DNA of 53,429 nucleotides from a bacterium (GTDB taxonomy: Bacteria > Margulisbacteria > Marinamargulisbacteria > JAHFDA01): the NCBI GenBank assembly GCA_023249225.1, contig JAHFDA010000014.1, forward strand, positions 1-53,429. Reading direction: 5' to 3'. Positions 28,890 through 48,637 of the stretch are shown one piece after another. Both the position numbers and the translations under genes were made by a program. Each line of letters begins with the position of its first letter. Positions within the stretch are counted from its first letter, which is position 1. The notes beneath the pieces are model-generated. The model saw only the letters and a list, made by a program, of their open reading frames with translations, had not been told where the DNA came from and ran no database searches.

Positions 28890-31800
28890 TCAAGGTCTAG
28901 TGACTGGCATCCAACGAGCCAGCACACTCCTCCACCGCATCCAAAAGGCAGAATCCAAGGACATATTCGGATAGGTCTTTTCCACCATGATTTTAGTGAA
29001 TTGCGCAAGTTCAGGGTTTCCGGCAAACTTGGCAAACTTAAGCTGCGCATTTAAAAAATCAAAGAAATAGTTGTGGTTCATCTCTTCGTAAGAAAGAGAG
29101 GTCTCAATGCCTTCTCCCGAAACCATGCAGGTTAGAGCCACTGAAGTATGGACATGCTCAATGGCCATTTGAAAAAGAACCCGTCGTTGAGCCACAGACA
29201 TGCCCTGCGTCATGATTTCCAAGGCCTTCCAAAATTCGTATTCTTGATAATGGACTACCCCGTTTTTGCCAGTCAATTCACCCCTTGTCCATTGCGGCAA
29301 AAATGGTTTTTCAGTCGCCAGTGACAGCCTTTCTATTTCAGCTTCCAAAAGCGATGCATTGCTCTGCGAGTCCGGTCCACGATACTCGGCCACCAGTTGT
29401 TTTAAACATTTCCACCGAAAAGGCTGACTGGGCACAGACAAGACGCCATCGACGTACACGCGCGCAAGCGCGGGCAAATCAAGGAGTTTGTCGTGAAGCA
29501 AAGCAGCCAAATGATTTTTCACAAATTCCTTGTGGGCATCGTCAGACAGCTTGCCAGTTTCTTTAAGAGCGTTGAGCAGTTCAAGAAACCTTGGGTGTAT
29601 TTTATTTTCGACCGAAAATTGGGCCAAATACTTGAGAACCTTCACTTGTAAGGCGGAGTCGTTGCTGCGCCAGAGCAGTCCCCGCAGTATGCACCATTGC
29701 CGGTGTCGTTCCATGCCGTAAACATCACGCTTATCTTTATCGGCCATAACCCTGTCTACCAGCCTATTAAGATTCTCTTCGGATACGCGATTCAATAAAC
29801 CTATGTAAACGGGTGCAGTAAACGAAATAAAAATACACATCGGTCGATCAATGTAAAACGACACTTGATCCTGATAAGCCGCCACGATATCTAAAATCTG
29901 ATTTTGATCTTCTATCCGTTCCACGAGCCGTGGAATCAGCCTGGGTAAAGCAGCCTTGTCCGTGCCCGGAAATTCGCGGGCTGGCCAGCCACAGCCCTCC
30001 ACCAAGGTCTTTGCGATTGGGTAGGCTGTTTCACCCTTAATGGCAGGATCGCTCAGCCTTTGGCGCAGCATGTCCAGTAGTTTGTCCCACGATGCGGTAT
30101 CCAAATTCATAAATCCCATGGCATGGACAAGCTGCTTTATGCAGGTAAGAAAGCGGGCCGGACTGTAGATACCGGTGGCTTGCAAGGCGGTTAAATCCGA
30201 CGGTCTCAATGTGTAAGGCGGGCTCCAGCGGCGGACGGTCTTGACGAGGGTGGCTTGAAAAGCATTGACGATACCTCGGTCATGATGGAAACGATTTCCC
30301 AAGTCATTGAATAGTTGCCGTTTTTCAGCGCTCAATTCGATTCCCATGTTCGAACGAATATAAAAATGAGTCATGCAAACACTTTTGTTATCGTGAAAGT
30401 ACACGCTGAACGAACGAGTAAACCAATCGTTAAGGCATAGCGCAACAGCGTCTAAAACAGACCTGTCGATTTGGCTGTCGGCAAAGCGTAGAACCTGCTC
30501 AATAAAAAACAGCCGGTCTTCGACATCCAGATAACGCACGCAGGCGCGGATACGCGCAACACCTTGCGCCCGGGTGCTTGCGCTGGCGCTTTCCAGCTCC
30601 GCCAGCCCCTGCCGTGCCCGTTCAAGTGGGGTCAAAAACATCGTCAGTCCAAACAACGGTTTGAGGTAAACCATTTGCTTGTCATTGGTATGTAAAAATC
30701 CCGTACGCACAATAGTCTCGGGTTTGTACCACTCCTGCTTGTGGTTCTGGTGGAGGCGTTCAAGCACAGCGGTCCAAAAACACGATACTTCGGCGTTGGC
30801 AGTGAGCAGGCCGTTATAAAGCAACAATTTTCCCAGCGCACGCCGTGGGCCGGGATCAGACAACAATGAATCCAAAAAGGACAGCAGTGTGATGCTTTGT
30901 CCGCCGGGCAATGCCGCTTCGTCATCCAGCGCAAAATACGAAAAAATTCTCGACAGGCGGCTTCCCAGTTCAAAGTCGGTTTCGCCAAAAACCCGGACAA
31001 GTTCGGCCATATATTGCTCAAGTTCAGCCGGACGCATGTGCGCAAAAAGCCCTGCGGCTTCTGCGCAGCGCAGCCGCCGGATCAAGCGCGTCCAGCTTTG
31101 TTTGGCGGACAAGGTGCCCAAGGCAAGGTGTGTGGCAAGTTCATACTCGCCACCTTGCAGCAGATGGCGCAGACTACGAAAGTGCAGTTCCATAGGATCA
31201 CTAACAAAATCGTCTTGCTCCAACGGGGCGTCAGTGGCAGCCCAAAGTTCGCGCAGAAAAACTTCCAGGTCTTCGCGTTTGGCCTGCGAGCGTTGGCTCT
31301 GTTGGATCAGCGTTGCTTGGGTGGAAGCGGAAAGTGCGCCCAGAATCCGGGGATGCGCCAGTAGTTGTTGCACGGTGGCACTGGTTCCCCAAGACAAACG
31401 GCTGGCGCGAGCGGTATTGGATGCTGACTTGAGGGATAATGCATTTTTTTGAAAGACGGTCTTGCTGTTGGCGTGCAATTTTTCGGGATGCAAGTACACC
31501 TGGGGCTGCATCAGATGCAATGTTTCGAGGGCGCCGTAATAAGGCTGGGTTTCGCCATCCGCTTGATCAAGGCCATTGAATAGCAAGTGATTAAGCGTTG
31601 CGTGGCCATGATTCGATCTGGCCAACTGCAAGCACACCGCGGTCAAAAGCTCCCTGGCCTGCTGCATACCGATATTTTCATCGTCTGCCATGACGCGGAA
31701 ACTTTGCCCAAGGTCATGGCGCGCGTGTTTTAAAGCCAGCGCAAGAGTGCCGTGGCGTTGAAAGATTCCAGAAAAAAACAGGGCCAGCATGGCTGGAGGG

Positions 31801-32189
31801 GTTGCGGCCAAAATTTTGTGCAAGCTTCGGCTGACCGGAAGTTCGGCCAGAATCTGCAAACTTTGCTGCGGACTCTGCCCCGCAAAAAGCAGCAGGGCCA
31901 TTTTGGAGTAGTCTTTGGCCATCCATAAGGCCATCAGGCGCAACTTGAATTTTTCGCTGCGTTCAATGGTTTCACCGCGTTCAAGCTGCTCTAAGTTTTC
32001 AAGCAGGGGCGCGACCAGCTGGGCGACATGTCGGCGGGCATCGTTGGGCAGTCCCTGTGAGGCATCCAAGTTCGCCAAAACCCGCAAGGCCCGTTCAAAG
32101 TCCTTGTTTAGCCAGGGTTCACGGTAAGCGCCAAAGGGCATTAGCCCTTGCTCCGCGTGCAATGCAATATGATGTAAAAAGAGGTTCAT
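28890..32189 (-). CDS. giant helical orphan protein
   Basis: A 1,099-residue protein without signal peptide or membrane segments and with no motif I can name. It is almost wholly helical in appearance, with many Leu/Ala-rich amphipathic segments (for example LIPRLVERIEDQNQILDIV, LLNALKETGKLSDDAHKEF) as in HEAT or armadillo superhelices. The C-terminal part is more aromatic (YQEYEFWKALEIMTQG, YFFDFLNAQLKFAKFA). ATG at 32189 was preferred to TTG at 32198. It stands alone, 95 nt from the ATPase remnant and 102 nt from the rhodanese end. Scaffold role is only a guess. Confidence 0.7.
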   Translation of the reverse strand: MNLFLHHIALHAEQGLMPFGAYREPWLNKDFERALRVLANLDASQGLPNDARRHVAQLVAPLLENLEQLERGETIERSEKFKLRLMALWMAKDYSKMALLLFAGQSPQQSLQILAELPVSRSLHKILAATPPAMLALFFSGIFQRHGTLALALKHARHDLGQSFRVMADDENIGMQQARELLTAVCLQLARSNHGHATLNHLLFNGLDQADGETQPYYGALETLHLMQPQVYLHPEKLHANSKTVFQKNALSLKSASNTARASRLSWGTSATVQQLLAHPRILGALSASTQATLIQQSQRSQAKREDLEVFLRELWAATDAPLEQDDFVSDPMELHFRSLRHLLQGGEYELATHLALGTLSAKQSWTRLIRRLRCAEAAGLFAHMRPAELEQYMAELVRVFGETDFELGSRLSRIFSYFALDDEAALPGGQSITLLSFLDSLLSDPGPRRALGKLLLYNGLLTANAEVSCFWTAVLERLHQNHKQEWYKPETIVRTGFLHTNDKQMVYLKPLFGLTMFLTPLERARQGLAELESASASTRAQGVARIRACVRYLDVEDRLFFIEQVLRFADSQIDRSVLDAVALCLNDWFTRSFSVYFHDNKSVCMTHFYIRSNMGIELSAEKRQLFNDLGNRFHHDRGIVNAFQATLVKTVRRWSPPYTLRPSDLTALQATGIYSPARFLTCIKQLVHAMGFMNLDTASWDKLLDMLRQRLSDPAIKGETAYPIAKTLVEGCGWPAREFPGTDKAALPRLIPRLVERIEDQNQILDIVAAYQDQVSFYIDRPMCIFISFTAPVYIGLLNRVSEENLNRLVDRVMADKDKRDVYGMERHRQWCILRGLLWRSNDSALQVKVLKYLAQFSVENKIHPRFLELLNALKETGKLSDDAHKEFVKNHLAALLHDKLLDLPALARVYVDGVLSVPSQPFRWKCLKQLVAEYRGPDSQSNASLLEAEIERLSLATEKPFLPQWTRGELTGKNGVVHYQEYEFWKALEIMTQGMSVAQRRVLFQMAIEHVHTSVALTCMVSGEGIETSLSYEEMNHNYFFDFLNAQLKFAKFAGNPELAQFTKIMVEKTYPNMSLDSAFWMRWRSVLARWMPVTRP

Positions 32190-32284
32190 AAGGGCCAAAA
32201 ATAGGACTGATGATTATCGATGTAAATTTGCCAGTATTGCAGGTAGAATGTTGACGAGAAATGTTGACGAACGACGAGGCTTCT

Positions 32285-36920: not shown

Positions 36921-37796
36921 TTACGGCAAGTAAAGCCGCCCGTATACTTCGGAACCGTCTAAAAGTTCAAAACGCAGGTCAAAACCCCTGGACATATTTT
37001 TTGCCGGTCCCGACGGCAGGTCAAACGTAAAAACGCCGTCCCCGGCCATGCGGTCGCCGTAAGTGCCATCGTCAAAAATCTCGAACACGGTGCTGACGCC
37101 TAGCGGGCTTAAGTTAAGCTCTAGTTCCATGGGTTTTTCGTCGGGTCTGCCCAACCAACGAAGTTCCACCACTGCATCCGACCCACGGTGGACAAGAAAG
37201 CACTTAAAGTAGACATCCAGTGTTGGCGGGGCAGGCGTAAGGATGTATCGCGCCACGTTGCGTGGCGGGTCTAACGTGAGCAGCTCTTGTAGCAGGCCGA
37301 CAAATTCCAGTGCCTCATAATAAGTGACCGGTGCGCTTAAATTGAAAGAAACTTCATCGGCCCATAGTTGCGGATTAAGGCCACTGCGAAAAAACCAGTC
37401 AACTGCTATTGCGTCCGGATGTTTTTCGGAAATATTCGCAAAACGTTTTTTGGATGTGCGTTGAAATAAGTGGTTCGGATAAACCGTTAAAGTGTTTTGC
37501 ATCAGCTCTTGCCGACTGATCGGACTTCTGTCTGCACTGGGTTCAAACAAGGCATAAAGCAAATCATGATTCTGGGTGCCCGACGAAGCCTGTACACGAT
37601 CCGCAAGCAGCATCAAAAAATGTTGGCGGGGCATCGGCTCTGCCTCCTGATAAAAAGCATTGAACCATTTGAGTTTAAGTGCGTCGCTGACCGGAATTTC
37701 CTGGGCTCCTTGCACCGGGGCGATGCAGCACACACCCATGAACAACACAGCCAAAAAACAGGCTTTAGCCACGGTGCCTTTTTTCGAGTTCAGCAT
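36921..37796 (-). CDS. exported protein with C-terminal beta domain
   Basis: A 291-residue protein with signal peptide (VAKACFLAVLFMGVCCIAP, cleavage probably after VQGA). The C-terminal 90 residues form a beta domain with DDGTYGDRMAGDGVFTFD, a D-G rich loop common in extracellular beta-sandwich proteins and possibly calcium binding. The middle is helical (ISRQELMQNTL). ATG at 37796 begins the signal peptide and overlaps hisE by 32 nt. It sits between hisE and gatC. Function unknown. Confidence 0.7.
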   Translation of the reverse strand: MLNSKKGTVAKACFLAVLFMGVCCIAPVQGAQEIPVSDALKLKWFNAFYQEAEPMPRQHFLMLLADRVQASSGTQNHDLLYALFEPSADRSPISRQELMQNTLTVYPNHLFQRTSKKRFANISEKHPDAIAVDWFFRSGLNPQLWADEVSFNLSAPVTYYEALEFVGLLQELLTLDPPRNVARYILTPAPPTLDVYFKCFLVHRGSDAVVELRWLGRPDEKPMELELNLSPLGVSTVFEIFDDGTYGDRMAGDGVFTFDLPSGPAKNMSRGFDLRFELLDGSEVYGRLYLP

Positions 37797-38046
37797 TGAC
37801 TTGTTCAAGGCGCAGACCACGTGCCTCCATAAGCACCAGTAAATGAAAATGCAGATCGGCAAGTTCCTCTACCATACGCTGGGCATCGGCGTTTTTGGCG
37901 GCAATAATGACCTCGCTGCTTTCTTCGCCCAGTTTCTTTAAAATTTTGTCGATCCCCTCGCGATGCAAATAAGAGGTGTAACTGTCTTCTTTGGGGTTGT
38001 TCCGGCGGTCTTGGATAATCTGGTAGATTTTTTCGAGCATCTGCAT
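37765..38046 (-). CDS. hisE: phosphoribosyl-ATP pyrophosphatase
   Basis: A 93-residue all-helical enzyme of histidine synthesis that hydrolyses PR-ATP to PR-AMP. Motifs: SYTSYLHREGIDKI, KLGEESSEVIIAAKN (metal-binding glutamates) and VEELADLHFHLLVLM. ATG at 38046 is preceded by TATAAT with only 6 nt between (38053-38058), so its mRNA may be leaderless. Separate from hisI at 25460. It starts the hisE > exported > gatC > gatA set. Confidence 0.93.
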   Translation of the reverse strand: MQMLEKIYQIIQDRRNNPKEDSYTSYLHREGIDKILKKLGEESSEVIIAAKNADAQRMVEELADLHFHLLVLMEARGLRLEQVNAELEKRHRG

Positions 38047-38052
38047 GGGCGC

Positions 38053-38058
38053 ATTATA
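38053..38058 (-). promoter_or_regulatory. -10 box of hisE
   Basis: A perfect TATAAT on the minus strand, 6 nt (38047-38052) before the hisE ATG. No -35 match is convincing. Confidence 0.6.
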
Positions 38059-38129
38059 GCCCTAAGCCTACGGGCAGAACAGTTACGGCATTTCCTTGGC
38101 GCACCTCTTAGCGGTAGAATTTGTTACAG

Positions 38130-39469: not shown

Positions 39470-40063
39470 CTAATTGAGCAAGGTCTTAATCAGTTTAAGA
39501 TCCACATCAGCTACAAAATTGAGCACATCATCGGCAGAACGCACATCAGTGCCCACCAAATTAAGCAATGTCTGGCCATCAATAAGCAAATTGACTTCAA
39601 TGGTCTTGCTTGATGCATCGTATTTTTGAATTCCAAGCAAACCTTCTTTTGTCTTAATCGATTTGACGCCATCACTCTGACTCGGTGCCTGTTTGATCAA
39701 TGTTTCGTACTGTTCAATGTCCGGATGATCAGCCAAGAGACTAACGCTCAAGGTTTGATCGGGAGTCTTGCCGTTATACATCAGGTTAAGCATGATGCCA
39801 GACGACTGCAACATAATTTCATCCTCAAACGGACTGGCCGGTGCCAAGGTCCACTGTCCAGAATTTTTAGGGAAGGCTTTTTTTAAGCTGTCGCTTACAA
39901 CAGCAACAACGCGCGCGCTTTCTTCTTTTAAAAAACTAAGCGCCGCCCGGTATTTTTTTTGTTGCAGATAGCTTTCGTACTGCTTTAGATCAGCGGCATA
40001 TACGCCTGATAAACCAATCACCGTCACGATAACAAAGCAAAAAGTTCCGTACCGTTTTACCAT
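39470..40063 (-). CDS. exported hypothetical protein
   Basis: A 197-residue periplasmic protein with signal peptide (KRYGTFCFVIVTVIGLSGVYA). The mature part begins with a helical hairpin (LKQYESYLQQKKYRAALSFL) and continues as an alpha/beta domain (GIMLNLMYNG, LSVSLLADHP, TIEVNLLIDGQTLLNLV). The 40057 and 39470 genes overlap by 7 nt. It ends a sigma-factor operon, which suggests an envelope-stress role. Not recognised. Confidence 0.7.
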   Translation of the reverse strand: MVKRYGTFCFVIVTVIGLSGVYAADLKQYESYLQQKKYRAALSFLKEESARVVAVVSDSLKKAFPKNSGQWTLAPASPFEDEIMLQSSGIMLNLMYNGKTPDQTLSVSLLADHPDIEQYETLIKQAPSQSDGVKSIKTKEGLLGIQKYDASSKTIEVNLLIDGQTLLNLVGTDVRSADDVLNFVADVDLKLIKTLLN

Positions 40064-40716
40064 GGACGGTTATTATCATAATTCATTTCGTCCCCGCCGT
40101 CCTGCTCGTCCGAAGCTGAACCTTCGTCGGGAGGCATGTCATTTTGTGGAGACTGTTGAAGCGGGCGATCCCCCTGCGGCTGGGGACGCTGCTGAAACTG
40201 GCGGTTTTCGCGGCGCTGACCACCCTGTCTAGAATCCTGATCCATGCCTTGTCCACCTCGTCTGCGGGCCATCTGTCGCAACATACGCGGAAACTCGGTC
40301 TGGAATTTAATGTAAAGGGCCTGTTGAGTGGGAGTCAGGATGCCAAATAAGTTGGCTTCAAGATCTTTTTTACGATCAAGATAATTTTCTTCTTGTTGCT
40401 TAAGTTCGCTAAGTGTTGCACCAAGGGATTGAGCATTTTCATTAGGCTGTCGGGTAAACTCGTCTAGTTTTTGCATCAACTTGTGCTTGGTGGCCATAAA
40501 GTCCTGGTTTAAGTTTTCAAGCTGGCTGAATACCGAAAAAAATTGCGGGCTTTGATCCTGGGTCAGCTTAAGCACACTGGTCAGTTTCCACATTTTGAAA
40601 TCCTGAATACGTTGATACTGCGATTCGTCCATGGCGCATATTGCCCTGGAAGGAGCCAGAAGCAAGAACCCACTTGCAAGCGCAAAACAAAACAGCATCC
40701 CTATTTTAGTACGCAT
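40057..40716 (-). CDS. periplasmic LTxxQ (Spy/CpxP-like) protein
   Basis: A 219-residue protein with signal peptide (TKIGMLFCFALASGFLLLAP). It carries two LTxxQ-type motifs, LKLTQDQSP and LTPTQQAL, in helical surroundings, as in Spy/CpxP/ZraP periplasmic chaperone-sensors. The C-terminal 70 residues are Gln/Arg/Pro/Asp-rich and disordered (RRRGGQGMDQDSRQGG). ATG at 40716 overlaps the anti-sigma stop by 11 nt. Expected to be part of the same envelope-stress response. Confidence 0.75.
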   Translation of the reverse strand: MRTKIGMLFCFALASGFLLLAPSRAICAMDESQYQRIQDFKMWKLTSVLKLTQDQSPQFFSVFSQLENLNQDFMATKHKLMQKLDEFTRQPNENAQSLGATLSELKQQEENYLDRKKDLEANLFGILTPTQQALYIKFQTEFPRMLRQMARRRGGQGMDQDSRQGGQRRENRQFQQRPQPQGDRPLQQSPQNDMPPDEGSASDEQDGGDEMNYDNNRPW

Positions 40717-41299
40717 CCAGACCACCTCCATTGGAATCAATCACAGTTACATCGTCATCAGAAAGATAACCATAATTTTCTAAATAGGCTGTAATGGCTT
40801 CGTCCGACACATCCTCTAAAGATATCGCCGACGGATACCTGATGACCGGGTTGTCGATTGGCCATTGCCCAGGCAACATTTCAAGCTGATTGGCCAGTTC
40901 TTCCCCAATGGTGAGTGTATTAAAATTTTGCGACACGTGTGGCAAAGGCGTGATCAACAAGGCCGGTAAAAAGAAAATCGCCGTGAGACAGGCCAAGGCC
41001 AGGCTGGGTTGCAGTCGCAAGTTAAATTCCAAAAACCAGGCGCGCAGCACTTTTAAGAATCCTTTGGGCGTACGTTGTTCCCATTTTTCCCAAAAACGGG
41101 CATCCAAACGTTGCCAGCCCAGTTCACTTAAATCAGGAACAGGCATGTTCTGGACGCGATTTAAAAGTTGCACATGCTGCCCCAGCATCTGCTGGCATTC
41201 GGCACACTGATCGCCATGCTGACGCACTTTGGCCGCTTGATCCGGATCAAGTTCGCCCAACGCCTCTAGCAATGTCAGTTCCTCCCATTTACACGGCAC
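40706..41299 (-). CDS. ZAS-type anti-sigma factor
   Basis: A 197-residue single-pass membrane protein. The N-terminal zinc-binding anti-sigma motif is H28-x3-C32-x2-C35 (HGDQCAEC). A membrane helix spans about residues 98-116 (LALACLTAIFFLPALLI), and the C-terminal domain would be periplasmic. GTG at 41299 overlaps the sigma gene end by 11 nt. It should hold the sigma factor inactive until an envelope signal; RseP is encoded elsewhere in the window. Confidence 0.85.
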   Translation of the reverse strand: MPCKWEELTLLEALGELDPDQAAKVRQHGDQCAECQQMLGQHVQLLNRVQNMPVPDLSELGWQRLDARFWEKWEQRTPKGFLKVLRAWFLEFNLRLQPSLALACLTAIFFLPALLITPLPHVSQNFNTLTIGEELANQLEMLPGQWPIDNPVIRYPSAISLEDVSDEAITAYLENYGYLSDDDVTVIDSNGGGLDAY

Positions 41300-41852
41300 G
41301 GTAGTCCTCCAAAAGAATTTTCAATTTGCGGACGGCATGAAAATAATTAGCCTTGGCGCCGCCTACCGAGCAACCCATGGCCTTGGCAACATCGACAAAC
41401 TTTAGATCATCACAGGCTTTGAGTATAAATGTTGCCCTTTGTTTTTCGGGCAGTTGCGTGAGGGCTTCTTGAAGATCCACGTCTAGTGTTGAAGCATCGG
41501 TGTAACCGCCATGCATCCGGTCAAGCGCCTGGTCATTGTCATAGAGCGATTCGCGTTTTTTATACCCCCGGCCCTGATGATTCAGACAGGCGTTAACTGC
41601 AATACGATATAACCACGTATAAAACGAAGAACTGCGGTTAAACTGTTCAATTTTTTCATATACTTTCATAAAAACATCCTGCAACAAATCTTCACTTTCG
41701 ATCCCGTTTTGCACAAAACGAAATATGAGCGCATAAATCCTTTTCTTATACTTATTAAAGATCGCCACAAATGCAGCTTCATCGCCTTTAAGCCATCGGT
41801 CAATCAGAGCAAAATCTTCATCTTGCGCTTGTTTTTCATCCGGCTCTGACAT
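41289..41852 (-). CDS. ECF (RpoE-like) sigma factor
   Basis: A 187-residue ECF sigma factor. Region 2: VAIFNKYKKRIYALIFRFV, DLLQDVFMKVYEKIEQF, FYTWLYRIAVNACL. Region 4: LTQLPEKQRATFILKACDDLKFVDVAKAMGCSVGGAKANYFHAVRKLK, only partly quoted as motif order. The ATG is preceded by GATAAT (5 nt) and TATAAT (11 nt), giving a very short leader. First gene of the sigma/anti-sigma/Spy-like/exported operon. Confidence 0.93.
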   Translation of the reverse strand: MSEPDEKQAQDEDFALIDRWLKGDEAAFVAIFNKYKKRIYALIFRFVQNGIESEDLLQDVFMKVYEKIEQFNRSSSFYTWLYRIAVNACLNHQGRGYKKRESLYDNDQALDRMHGGYTDASTLDVDLQEALTQLPEKQRATFILKACDDLKFVDVAKAMGCSVGGAKANYFHAVRKLKILLEDYRAV

Positions 41853-44378: not shown

Positions 44379-45125
44379 ATGTTTAAGTACCGTTCTGTCT
44401 CGTGGCGGCCCGACATCCGCATTGTGGAACCCTTTGCAAAGAATACAAAAATCGAAGGCTTGGCCGTGGCCATTGATGTGCTGCGAGCTTTTTCTACGGC
44501 AGTGTATTTGTTTGAGCGTGGCCTTAAAGAAATAATTGTGGCCCAAAATTTTGAGCATGCGCGCAAACTGAAGCCGTTTTTTCCGACTTCCCTTTTAATG
44601 GGCGAGCAGGATGGAGAAGTCCCAGCCGATTTTGATTTGGGCAATTCACCTTGGCAGGCGCAGTTTGCAGACGTCAAGGATAAGCAGGCGATCTTTTCAA
44701 CCACCGCAGGCACACGCGGCTTGCTAAAAGCCTTAGAACAGGGTGCCCGCCCGGTGCTCACGGGATCATTTGTAAACATGAGCGCCACCTTGAGGCACAT
44801 TCGTCAATTAAAGCCCGCAATCATTACGCTGGTGCCCTGTGGAAACGGAGGTTCGTTGCAGGCGTTAGAAGATGCTGAATACGCCGCTCACCTGCGCGAC
44901 ATGCTGCTGGGTGTTGAACGCACAGTTGAGCTGGCAGCCTGGTTGACAAAAGAACAATGTCGTCACGATGTTTTTTGCCAACGTTTTTTTAATCTGGATC
45001 AGCCGGAATACCCCGAAGAAGATTTTGAGCAATGCTTTCAAGACCGGGTGGCTTTGGTGGCCCAGGCCCGCACTGAAGTATTAAACGGAGTTTCTGTAAC
45101 TATGCTGCGCCCGCTTGTGGTCTGA
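44379..45125 (+). CDS. comB: ComB-like 2-phosphosulfolactate phosphatase
   Basis: A 248-residue protein of the ComB family: AIDVLRAFSTAVY, LMGEQDGEVPADFDLGNSP, FSTTAGTRGLLKAL, GSFVNMSATL and EDAEYAAHLRDM. The family hydrolyses 2-phosphosulfolactate in coenzyme M and sulfolactate metabolism, though many bacterial members have other, unknown substrates. The last 45 bp overlap the convergent sigma gene tail to tail. Confidence 0.82.
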   Translation: MFKYRSVSWRPDIRIVEPFAKNTKIEGLAVAIDVLRAFSTAVYLFERGLKEIIVAQNFEHARKLKPFFPTSLLMGEQDGEVPADFDLGNSPWQAQFADVKDKQAIFSTTAGTRGLLKALEQGARPVLTGSFVNMSATLRHIRQLKPAIITLVPCGNGGSLQALEDAEYAAHLRDMLLGVERTVELAAWLTKEQCRHDVFCQRFFNLDQPEYPEEDFEQCFQDRVALVAQARTEVLNGVSVTMLRPLVV

Positions 45126-47615
45126 AGGCGAGGTCACAATATCGGTGTAAAGCTCGTGGCCAGCGCGACAATGTCGAACCAGATTCGCAAATTTTTTGAT
45201 TGCCTTAATTTCAAGCTTACGCACAGATTCTCTTGTCAACGGTTGAGTGTTTATGCCAAGTTCTACCGCACGCTTTCCGATTTCTTCCAACGAAAGTGGT
45301 GCAGTGTAAAATCCCTGACGGTGTTTGAGTACGCGCGCGCCCACTGAATCCTGCTGTTCAAACTCTTCAAAAATCTTTCGGACGGTCTCATCGCGGTCGG
45401 CGTCGATTACAATCGTATCGGGGCGCAAGCTTTCGTCGGAAATAAACTGTCCAAGGGTGTTGCCTTCGTCGTTGATGGGAGTCTCAAGGGACACTTCGTT
45501 TGTGGCAAGCGAACGTTCCATCACCCCGGGCTTAAACAGATTTTTGATGGTCGTGATGCTGCGTTCAATTTTTTCTGCCATTTTTTCAAGACCCGCCTCG
45601 TCAAGTTGACGGGCGTCGTTAAGGGTTAAATTGTTTTCTTTTAAGTACTTCCAGATTCTGCGTATGGTCTGTAAGGCGCCAACTGAAATGCCACTTTGCT
45701 CGTCGAGATAGCGCTTGACACGGGCTGTCACCCACCAGCCAGCATAGGTGCTGAACTTGGTGCCACGATCCAGGCTAAAATCTTCTGTGGCGCGCCACAG
45801 ACCTGCTTGGCCAATGGGGTATAGCACTTCGATCAGTTCAAATGTGGCCGGATCCTTAAAATCGTGTTTGCGTTGTCCTAAAATGCGGCTGATACTTGAA
45901 CGGATCAGGCGCTCATGGCTGGCAATTAAAGTCTGTAACAAGGCCGGGTCGCTGCGTCCACCGGCAATGTATGTTTCCCACATTTGCTTTTCGTCCGCCC
46001 ATGCAAAATGCCGCTTGATATCCGGTATCGGTAGGGTAGCAACCCTTGGCAAGCGTGGGGATTTAGTGCGTGTTAATGCCGGTGTATTCTGGGTATCGAG
46101 GGGCAGGCGCAAGAGGTGGGCCGGGGGTTTTGGGAATCGAGTACTGGCCACAATCCGAAGTTCCAGAAACCGAAAGTCCACCTGGCCCTGTGCTTGGTAA
46201 AGGCCCTGGGGCAGACCGGTTGGATAATCTTTTTTGTCAAAGCGCAAGTTGCCATTGGCGTCGATAGCTATTAAATAGGGAGCCTGGATTTCGGCCACAT
46301 CGGATGAACATTGCAAAACTACCGATTGATCAGCCTCCTTGGCAGAATCAAAGCTGGAAAAATTGGGAATGTGTGCAAACAATGCCGCTATAAAATCCAC
46401 CTGTGAATCCATGATTAATCGGGGCGCTGTCAGAAACTGCTCGCCTTCACGCAAGACATAAGTTAAACGGCGTGCTTCTTCTTGATGGGCTTCGGACAAC
46501 AAACCTAGCGTCAGGCACCACTGTGCCGCCTGGTCAGGTTCAAGGCGGGCATGGCAGCGACCCAGCAATTTTTGTCCGCGCCAGGCTTCGGGCAAGCCGC
46601 TGACATAAAACTGTTGTTGCTGGATCTTGTCTTCACTTTTTACACGACGAGTGAGCACCATCAATCCCTTTTTAAGGGTAGGGCTTTTGGACTGCATCCG
46701 AAGTTCATCGAGAGTGGAAAGATAATATACACGCCCGATGTCGAGATCAGCAGGAGCCTTATCCGTCAGCCATGAAACTGCATAAGGCCCCCAGCCATAG
46801 GGATTGTCGTCTGCAAGCAAGCCATGCTTTAAAACTGCTTCTCCAGCTTGGACACCATGGGACAACAGTTTGCCGTCAACGCATAAAATGCGGTGTTCTT
46901 CTGGGGCGCTCACACCAGGCTCTAAAAGTTTCTTTTCAGGTTTCAAGCGTACTCCCCGTGCCCTGCGGCCATCGGTCAGGATACACTCAAATGGTTCTAC
47001 TTCCACGTCAGTCACCAAATCGTCAAAGGGACCAAAACGCCAACGTAGGCGTGGCTCACCCAGTTCGACCAGTGTCACGCAGCGGTCACTGGGATATAGA
47101 CCCATCGTTTTTGTATCCGGAGGCGTTGGTCTTAATCCGGTAACCCACTCATACAGCCACAAGCCCCAGCCCCAGGCATTGACCGGTCCGGCAATTTGCT
47201 TGGGGGTTGGCAAAATCTCTTGCCCTTTTCTTAAAAGAAAAACCATGCGGGGGGAAGTAGGGCGATCCCGGAGATCCCAGGGCACAAGGGACATGCACCA
47301 CAGACGGGTTTTACCTTTGATCTGGCAGAAAAAACGTGCCTCCAGAAAAATGTGCGTCCATTCTGCGGGAACCCCGCTGATCACCAGGTTATGCCGGTCA
47401 GAGTTGATCGGCACACCACCCATAACATACACGATGTTACATTGGGGGTGAGTTTTATAGCGGCGCGTGAGTGGGGGCAGTTCACCTGTGTCTGATAGAA
47501 GCCACTGAAAGGCAGATTTGTGCCAAACACGCATGGCCGCCGGGGAGTGATTTGTCACCTCTGCGTCTTTGGGAGACTTACTTGTTATGGCCACTGTCCG
47601 GTACGCCAAGTGCAT
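45081..47615 (-). CDS. sigma-70-family protein with a large repeat-built N-terminal extension
   Basis: An 844-residue protein. The last 300 residues form a sigma-70-family factor: MWETYIAGG at region 1.2, region 2 around VLYPIGQAGLWRATEDFSL and KFSTYAGWWVTARVKRY, region 3, and region 4 with LSLEEIGKRAVELG and TRESVRKLEIKAIKKF. The first 535 have no sigma match but contain two clear copies of a module: residues 76-141 (NLVISGVPAEW...WCMSL...LLRKGQEIL) and 335-401 (QFYVSGLPEAW...WCLTL...VLREGEQFL), plus N-x-x-GWG blocks at about 146 and 271. Such an extension is unlike any sigma factor I know. ATG at 47615 is favoured; TTG at 47690 and ATG at 47534 are alternatives. Confidence 0.85.
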   Translation of the reverse strand: MHLAYRTVAITSKSPKDAEVTNHSPAAMRVWHKSAFQWLLSDTGELPPLTRRYKTHPQCNIVYVMGGVPINSDRHNLVISGVPAEWTHIFLEARFFCQIKGKTRLWCMSLVPWDLRDRPTSPRMVFLLRKGQEILPTPKQIAGPVNAWGWGLWLYEWVTGLRPTPPDTKTMGLYPSDRCVTLVELGEPRLRWRFGPFDDLVTDVEVEPFECILTDGRRARGVRLKPEKKLLEPGVSAPEEHRILCVDGKLLSHGVQAGEAVLKHGLLADDNPYGWGPYAVSWLTDKAPADLDIGRVYYLSTLDELRMQSKSPTLKKGLMVLTRRVKSEDKIQQQQFYVSGLPEAWRGQKLLGRCHARLEPDQAAQWCLTLGLLSEAHQEEARRLTYVLREGEQFLTAPRLIMDSQVDFIAALFAHIPNFSSFDSAKEADQSVVLQCSSDVAEIQAPYLIAIDANGNLRFDKKDYPTGLPQGLYQAQGQVDFRFLELRIVASTRFPKPPAHLLRLPLDTQNTPALTRTKSPRLPRVATLPIPDIKRHFAWADEKQMWETYIAGGRSDPALLQTLIASHERLIRSSISRILGQRKHDFKDPATFELIEVLYPIGQAGLWRATEDFSLDRGTKFSTYAGWWVTARVKRYLDEQSGISVGALQTIRRIWKYLKENNLTLNDARQLDEAGLEKMAEKIERSITTIKNLFKPGVMERSLATNEVSLETPINDEGNTLGQFISDESLRPDTIVIDADRDETVRKIFEEFEQQDSVGARVLKHRQGFYTAPLSLEEIGKRAVELGINTQPLTRESVRKLEIKAIKKFANLVRHCRAGHELYTDIVTSPSDHKRAQHSYRNSV

Positions 47616-47689: not shown

Positions 47690-48637
47690 ATGTCAGCTCA
47701 TCACAAGATCACACAAGTGCTCACCGGGCTCGGTTTCTCTAAAGTTGGTTTTACTCTGGCAGTAGTTCCGGAATCAGCCCAAAAAAATTTTGATGGCTGG
47801 CTTAAAAAACAATACCACGGAAGCATGGCCTGGATGGAGCGCGGGCGCGAAAAACGCGCAGACCTGCAACACGTGTTGCCGGGAGCCAAAACCGTGATCT
47901 GCACAGCCACCAACTATTACACTGCGGGCGATACGGCCGAGGTCATGCCCGCTGGCCGTGTCAGCCGCTATGCCTGGGGCGAGGATTATCACAAAGTCAT
48001 TGAAAAACGCCAAAACGAATTTGTGACCTGGTTTCAAAAAAATTTTCCACAGGAATCCATCAAAGCCTATGTGGATACGGGACCCTTGCTAGAAAAAGCG
48101 CTGGCCGAAGAAGCTGGCCTGGGCTGGCAGGGCAAGCATTCCAACCTGATCACCAAGGAATGGGGCAGCTGGGTTTTTCTGGCAGAGTTTGTCACCACGC
48201 TTGCGATTGAACCCGCTGTGCCCACAGAAGATTTTTGCGGTACTTGCACAGCTTGCATCGATGCCTGTCCCACCCAGGCCATTGTGGAACCTTACGTGGT
48301 TGATGCGCGTCAGTGTCTGTCGTATTTAACCATCGAACATCGTGGTGATTTCACCGCCGTCGATTCACCGACCCGCCCTCTTGGCGACGCGTGGATTTAC
48401 GGCTGCGACATCTGCCAGGACGTTTGTCCGTGGAATCGTTTTCAAACCGAAAGTCTGGAACCGGCATTTTTGCCGCGCCCGGCCTACCGCCAGCTGACGC
48501 GTGCCGCCATTGATGCCCTGACAGAAAATGAGTTTCAAACTGTCTTTTCGGGTTCGCCGATACGCCGAGCTAAATTGGATGGTTTAAAAAGAAATGTTTT
48601 TTCCATCACCAGCGCGTCTTCCTCGGGCTCACTGTAA
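47690..48637 (+). CDS. queG: epoxyqueuosine reductase
   Basis: A 315-residue cobalamin and iron-sulfur enzyme that makes queuosine in tRNA. Motifs: VDTGPLLEKALAEEAGLGWQGKHSNLI with the proposed catalytic Asp, and two [4Fe-4S] clusters in CGTCTACIDACPT and CDICQDVCPWN. It is a short form without C-terminal HEAT repeats. The last 103 bp, encoding SGSPIRRAKLDGLKRN and the Ser-rich end, overlap the convergent rimI gene. Confidence 0.95.
   Translation: MSAHHKITQVLTGLGFSKVGFTLAVVPESAQKNFDGWLKKQYHGSMAWMERGREKRADLQHVLPGAKTVICTATNYYTAGDTAEVMPAGRVSRYAWGEDYHKVIEKRQNEFVTWFQKNFPQESIKAYVDTGPLLEKALAEEAGLGWQGKHSNLITKEWGSWVFLAEFVTTLAIEPAVPTEDFCGTCTACIDACPTQAIVEPYVVDARQCLSYLTIEHRGDFTAVDSPTRPLGDAWIYGCDICQDVCPWNRFQTESLEPAFLPRPAYRQLTRAAIDALTENEFQTVFSGSPIRRAKLDGLKRNVFSITSASSSGSL

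Follow-up and report, generated by a model that had tools for sequence, protein, structure and literature searches.

Introduction

N-terminally extended extracytoplasmic function (ECF) sigma factors are known in Planctomycetes (former ECF87-89), and the extensions of partner-less ECF sigma factors are reported as regulatory, with no mechanistic information on sigma N-terminal extensions yet (PMC8103513). MzaA, the sigma factor of the MZA anti-phage system (NF041931, PDLC02203), has a 726-position model in which the sigma part begins after position ~440. Here, we analyzed a giant sigma-70-family protein, A, encoded in a 53,429-nucleotide stretch of DNA (the window; contig JAHFDA010000014.1 of assembly GCA_023249225.1, Marinamargulisbacteria), in which a ~534-aa N-terminal extension with a duplicated module precedes a ~310-aa sigma domain. 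B and C denote further proteins of the same genome, and D and E are encoded in two other genomes of the phylum. A first-pass annotation had considered the sigma extension to be of an unfamiliar kind. The module is indeed new, but the architecture is of a known kind, since extended sigma factors have precedents in the Planctomycetes ECFs (PMC8103513), MzaA and two other genomes of the phylum. A represents an RpoD-like, non-ECF case of an extended sigma factor. Its module is duplicated and undescribed, and B is a naturally occurring paralogue, so that the contributions of its parts are testable by truncation and swapping.

A single reading frame ends in an RpoD-like sigma domain

The gene and the parts of its sigma half are as follows, where conserved columns are those of 31 RpoD-like proteins of the phylum.

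45081-47615, minus strand: giant sigma-70-family protein A, 844 aa (one open frame; sigma and paralogue matches)
45084-46013, minus strand: sigma domain (residues 535-844), regions 2 to 4, without region 1.1 and most of 1.2 (sigma model, PDB and conserved-column comparisons)
45720-45776, minus strand: region 2.3 (residues 614-632), melting aromatics F, T, Y, WW retained (9/13 conserved columns identical)
45417-45506, minus strand: region 3.2 finger (residues 704-733; SLETPINDEGNTLGQFISDE; 10/16 conserved columns identical)
45174-45302, minus strand: region 4.2 (residues 772-814), -35 helix TRESVRKLE retained (13/25 columns identical, 19 similar)

The frame at 45081-47615 with a sigma-type C-terminus, as first proposed, was recovered as a single frame of 844 codons with Pfam, TIGR02393 and PDB matches. 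An open frame of this length has a probability of ~3e-19, as estimated from how densely stops occur in the other sense frames. It starts with the ATG at 47615, while an alternative TTG at 47690 would add 25 aa. Codon usage and G+C content at third codon positions agree with other window genes in both halves, and the maximal 19-residue hydropathy is 1.02, without a membrane segment. At its 3′ end, the gene shares a 45-base overlap (45081-45125) with a convergent 2-phosphosulfolactate-phosphatase-like gene (44379-45125, plus strand).

The sigma half matched TIGR02393 RpoD_Cterm at 2.7e-22 over residues 601-812, with regions 2-4 in order, which identifies it as a sigma-70 homologue; it also matched RpoS (TIGR02394, 3.9e-21), PDB RpoD chains (1.4e-15) and Pfam Sigma70_r2 (2.4e-6). 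A is not an RpoD equivalog (79.5 bits against a TIGR02393 cut-off of 354), nor an ECF factor, as the 3.2 finger is present and the sigma70-ECF model gave 31.7 bits, below its cut-off of 42.9. Like RpoD and RpoS of groups 1-2, A has a recognisable 3.2 finger and -35 helix. In contrast to them, it lacks regions 1.1/1.2, is diverged in regions 2.1, 2.2, 2.4 and 3.0, and carries the extension as well as an insertion of ~8 additional residues inside the helix-turn-helix of region 4.2, which is likewise found in B. The melting residues of region 2.3 (KFSTYAGWW) are retained along with the finger and the -35 helix, and KFSTYAGWW, LSLEEIG and TRESVRKLE, which had been picked out as sigma motifs, do belong to regions 2.3 and 4.2. 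Judged by the region roles of E. coli sigma-70, melting and -35 contact look preserved in A, while the selection of -10 elements seems altered and binding to core is uncertain. The retained regions predict that A is likely to have sigma activity, despite the diverged regions 2.2, 2.4 and 3.0.

A resembles the Planctomycetes ECFs in having an extension before region 2 and no partner anti-sigma gene, but differs in being RpoD-like with regions 3.0-3.2 and in carrying a module without a library match; this comparison draws on the published description of those proteins. MzaA was also matched by the sigma half (6.8e-15). However, this match covers only residues 602-811 of A and model positions 509-703, at 54.9 bits against a cut-off of 800, and in the PADLOC model it covers positions 456-503. 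The N-terminal part specific to MzaA is not matched.

The extension contains a duplicated tryptophan-rich module

The extension is divided into the following parts.

47181-47531, minus strand: extension unit 1 (residues 29-145), W-rich helix and beta module (profile match 8e-50; alignment)
47193-47390, minus strand: module core 1 (residues 76-141; SGVPxxW ... WCMSL ... LLRKGQ; self-alignment score 71)
47163-47180, minus strand: NAWGWG block (residues 146-151; sequence), motif not kept in B
46815-47180, minus strand: middle segment (residues 146-267), shared with B and no more than weakly repeat-like (shuffle test)
46788-46805, minus strand: NPYGWG block (residues 271-276; sequence), motif not kept in B
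46410-46814, minus strand: extension unit 3 (residues 268-402), including module core 2 (335-401; SGLPxxWRG ... VLREGEQ; profile match 2e-57; AlphaFold2 (AF2) unit model)
46014-46409, minus strand: tail segment (residues 403-534), absent from B, no repeat detected (alignments; shuffle test)

The two homologous modules that had been proposed at about residues 76-141 and 335-401 aligned with a Smith-Waterman score of 71, compared with 29.9±5.0 or 26.3±4.3 for shuffled sequences in two runs. As a profile, the repeated unit is ~120-135 aa long and consists of a W-rich helix and about six strands; searching the whole genome with it gave exactly four real copies, two in A and two in B. Weak module matches in a REP-transposase-like open reading frame (ORF) on contig C78 and in a large ATPase-like orphan on contig C16 were judged to be chance. 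The middle segment is conserved between A and B (score 88 versus 26±4.5 for shuffles) and showed some likeness to unit 3 of A (score 49, P ~0.003), with no significant score against unit 1, while the shuffle test detected no repeat in the tail. The description of the extension as repeat-built therefore holds for the two module copies, but the middle is only weakly repeat-like and the tail has no repeat. Similarly, the N-x2-GWG blocks noted next to the modules are present (N146-G151 and N271-G276) but are not motifs in B, with which only a W/WL pattern is common. The extension contains 14 W in 535 residues, and nine of the 13 aligned W positions are retained in B.

No match to the extension was found in Pfam, NCBIfam, PHROGs, PADLOC or PDB sequences. 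The first-pass annotation had named a match to a known sigma non-conserved region as a refutation; no match to such a region or to region 1.1 was found, either with Pfam over residues 1-522 or with the extension profile against PDB sequences at E 10. Of the 74 genomes of the phylum compared, the source genome alone represents its order, the relatives being of its class or phylum; the A/B extension was absent from the other 73, and tblastn found none in phages or plasmids. Motif-based scans of GTDB and IMG/VR contigs, a method that detects close relatives only, found no extension. The AF2 model of the module unit, built from four sequences, was beta-rich (predicted local distance difference test, pLDDT, 68; predicted template modelling score, pTM, 0.63), and a Foldseek search with it gave a best PDB hit at E 1.7, a best viral hit at E 0.42 and none below 0.001, a negative result that carries little weight at this model quality. 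The full-length model of A (pLDDT 43.6, pTM 0.26) was left out of the Foldseek comparison.

A paralogue on another contig carries the same fusion

Two further giant proteins lie on one contig of the source genome.

L009:6091-8136, contig C36, minus strand: paralogue B, 681 aa (both halves match A)
L009:12157-14493, contig C36, plus strand: giant sigma-like C, 778 aa; its ~455-aa front half is of another kind and unmatched, and its region 4 is badly eroded (sigma-part match)

The two halves of A matched those of B at E 8e-42 and 2e-38, and A and B clustered in the tree with support of 99/98, which supports the proposed fusion of a repeat-containing region to a sigma-70 domain, if not its novelty, as the architecture is not unprecedented. 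A and B are 29.7% identical over the extension and 30.9% identical over the sigma half, and these nearly equal values suggest that both halves are under similar constraint. C lies ~4 kb from B, matched in the sigma part only (4e-9) and retains 6/25 conserved columns of region 4.2. The branch lengths (6.4 for A; B and C at the upper limit of 10) limit both the placement of C and any inference of one versus several origins of the giants. Profile comparison of the A/B extension with C and D revealed no similarity.

The neighbourhoods of A and of B/C have no genes in common except the sigma genes, so there is no common anti-sigma partner. Ordinary RpoD-like sigmas are also encoded in the genome (L010, L011), and A is therefore an extra factor. 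A PemK/MazF-family toxin gene (L009:8211-8627, minus strand) is located directly upstream of B. Two weak signals were rejected as chance: matches of the C extension at E ~0.006-0.009 in three genomes, where two of the proteins look like terminator Rho, and a match between a HisE-like ORF of the window (37765-38061, minus strand) and region 4 of B, at 36 bits in a tiny set, which tblastn did not confirm.

A may be a self-contained alternative sigma factor

We propose, with about an even chance of being right, that A is a self-contained alternative sigma factor regulated by its own N-terminal beta-domain array. A would be a cytoplasmic, RpoD-derived protein in which private, Trp-rich and mainly beta-structured domains, ~534 residues in total, have taken the place of regions 1.1/1.2. 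The array may recognise a ligand, a protein or nucleic acid and so release or hold back the sigma domain joined to it. The sigma domain in turn would open a class of alternative promoters in which the -10 element is altered and the -35 element near-canonical. That A binds core RNA polymerase, that the extension regulates it and which promoter class it reads are inferred, and the extension may act as a sensor, as the first-pass annotation proposed. In favour of the proposal are the shared layout and similar divergence of A and B, the retained parts of regions 2.3, 3.2 and 4.2, the lack of a membrane segment and of a common anti-sigma partner, the ordinary RpoD-like sigmas encoded besides A, and the regulatory role reported for extensions of partner-less ECF sigma factors (PMC8103513). 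Several observations weigh against this proposal. The core-binding motif of region 2.2 is QEGN in relatives and PIGQ in A (8/16 conserved columns in region 2.2 overall), and little is retained of regions 2.1 (5/16), 2.4 (2/11) and 3.0 (2/11). Moreover, the A/B paralogues are small in number and all belong to a single genome, and sequence, profile and Foldseek searches gave no clue to a ligand, fold or function of the extension.

The divergence of the core-binding and -10 residues in A, B and C, together with the loss of most of region 4.2 in C and the very long branches, is also what would be expected if these proteins were former sigma factors that no longer serve as such, a degenerating or repurposed family (A the least and C the most diverged) whose helical part binds DNA or protein. 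We regard this as possible but doubtful, as the long frames remain open, A retains the region 2.3 aromatics and the 3.2 finger, codon usage is host-like, and both halves have diverged equally. Alternatively, the Trp-rich beta modules, with most of their aligned W positions kept in B, could form a structural or targeting arm of a constitutive sigma factor, which would select promoters through contacts with DNA, core polymerase or an activator and would not sense a signal. This seems unlikely, since the extension has no likeness to DNA- or polymerase-binding domains by sequence, or by PDB fold at E <1. Finally, two adjacent genes might have been joined in assembly or annotation; the first-pass annotation had named an assembly join as a refutation. 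The lack of a promoter-like site (consensus scan) or an obvious ribosome-binding site before the ATG at 47615 might point to a join, although such an absence is weak in this lineage. A join can be dismissed almost entirely, because B carries the same fusion independently on another contig and A has neither a stop nor a frame break, with composition and codon usage matching host genes.

Giant sigma proteins occur in other genomes of the phylum

Further giants were counted among the matches listed by a phylum-wide RpoD search.

L035:3667-6504, minus strand: giant sigma D, 945 aa, long uncharacterised front half and RpoD-like C-terminal half (RpoD search)
L036:1864-4212, plus strand: giant sigma E, 782 aa, long uncharacterised front half and RpoD-like C-terminal half (RpoD search)

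D and E share with A the layout of a long front half and an RpoD-like C-terminus, but their front halves are similar neither to one another nor to those of A, B and C. The QEG core motif is retained in D. Giant sigma proteins with unrelated front halves are thus present in at least 3 of 74 genomes, suggesting that sigma factors gain such parts more often than noticed. Tentatively, lineages of the phylum might repeatedly fuse fast-evolving, lineage-private arrays to RpoD-like domains, yielding sense-and-switch sigmas in one polypeptide, each with its own promoter class.

The front half of E repeats, by eye, a 'HFRTI-IPEI--T--GL' motif. The first ~80 residues of D resemble a sigma-less orphan of another genome (L080:7973-9025, plus strand) at E 1.6e-6 in a very small set and 3.5e-4 in a genome search, and this orphan adjoins a second orphan gene (L080:6423-7976, plus strand).

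Other genes in the window

An ECF-type sigma gene (41289-41852, minus strand) overlaps a downstream anti-sigma-looking gene without a Pfam match (40706-41299), which is followed by a third gene (group 40057-41852). The window also contains a 1102-aa frame without any Pfam match (28890-32198, minus strand).
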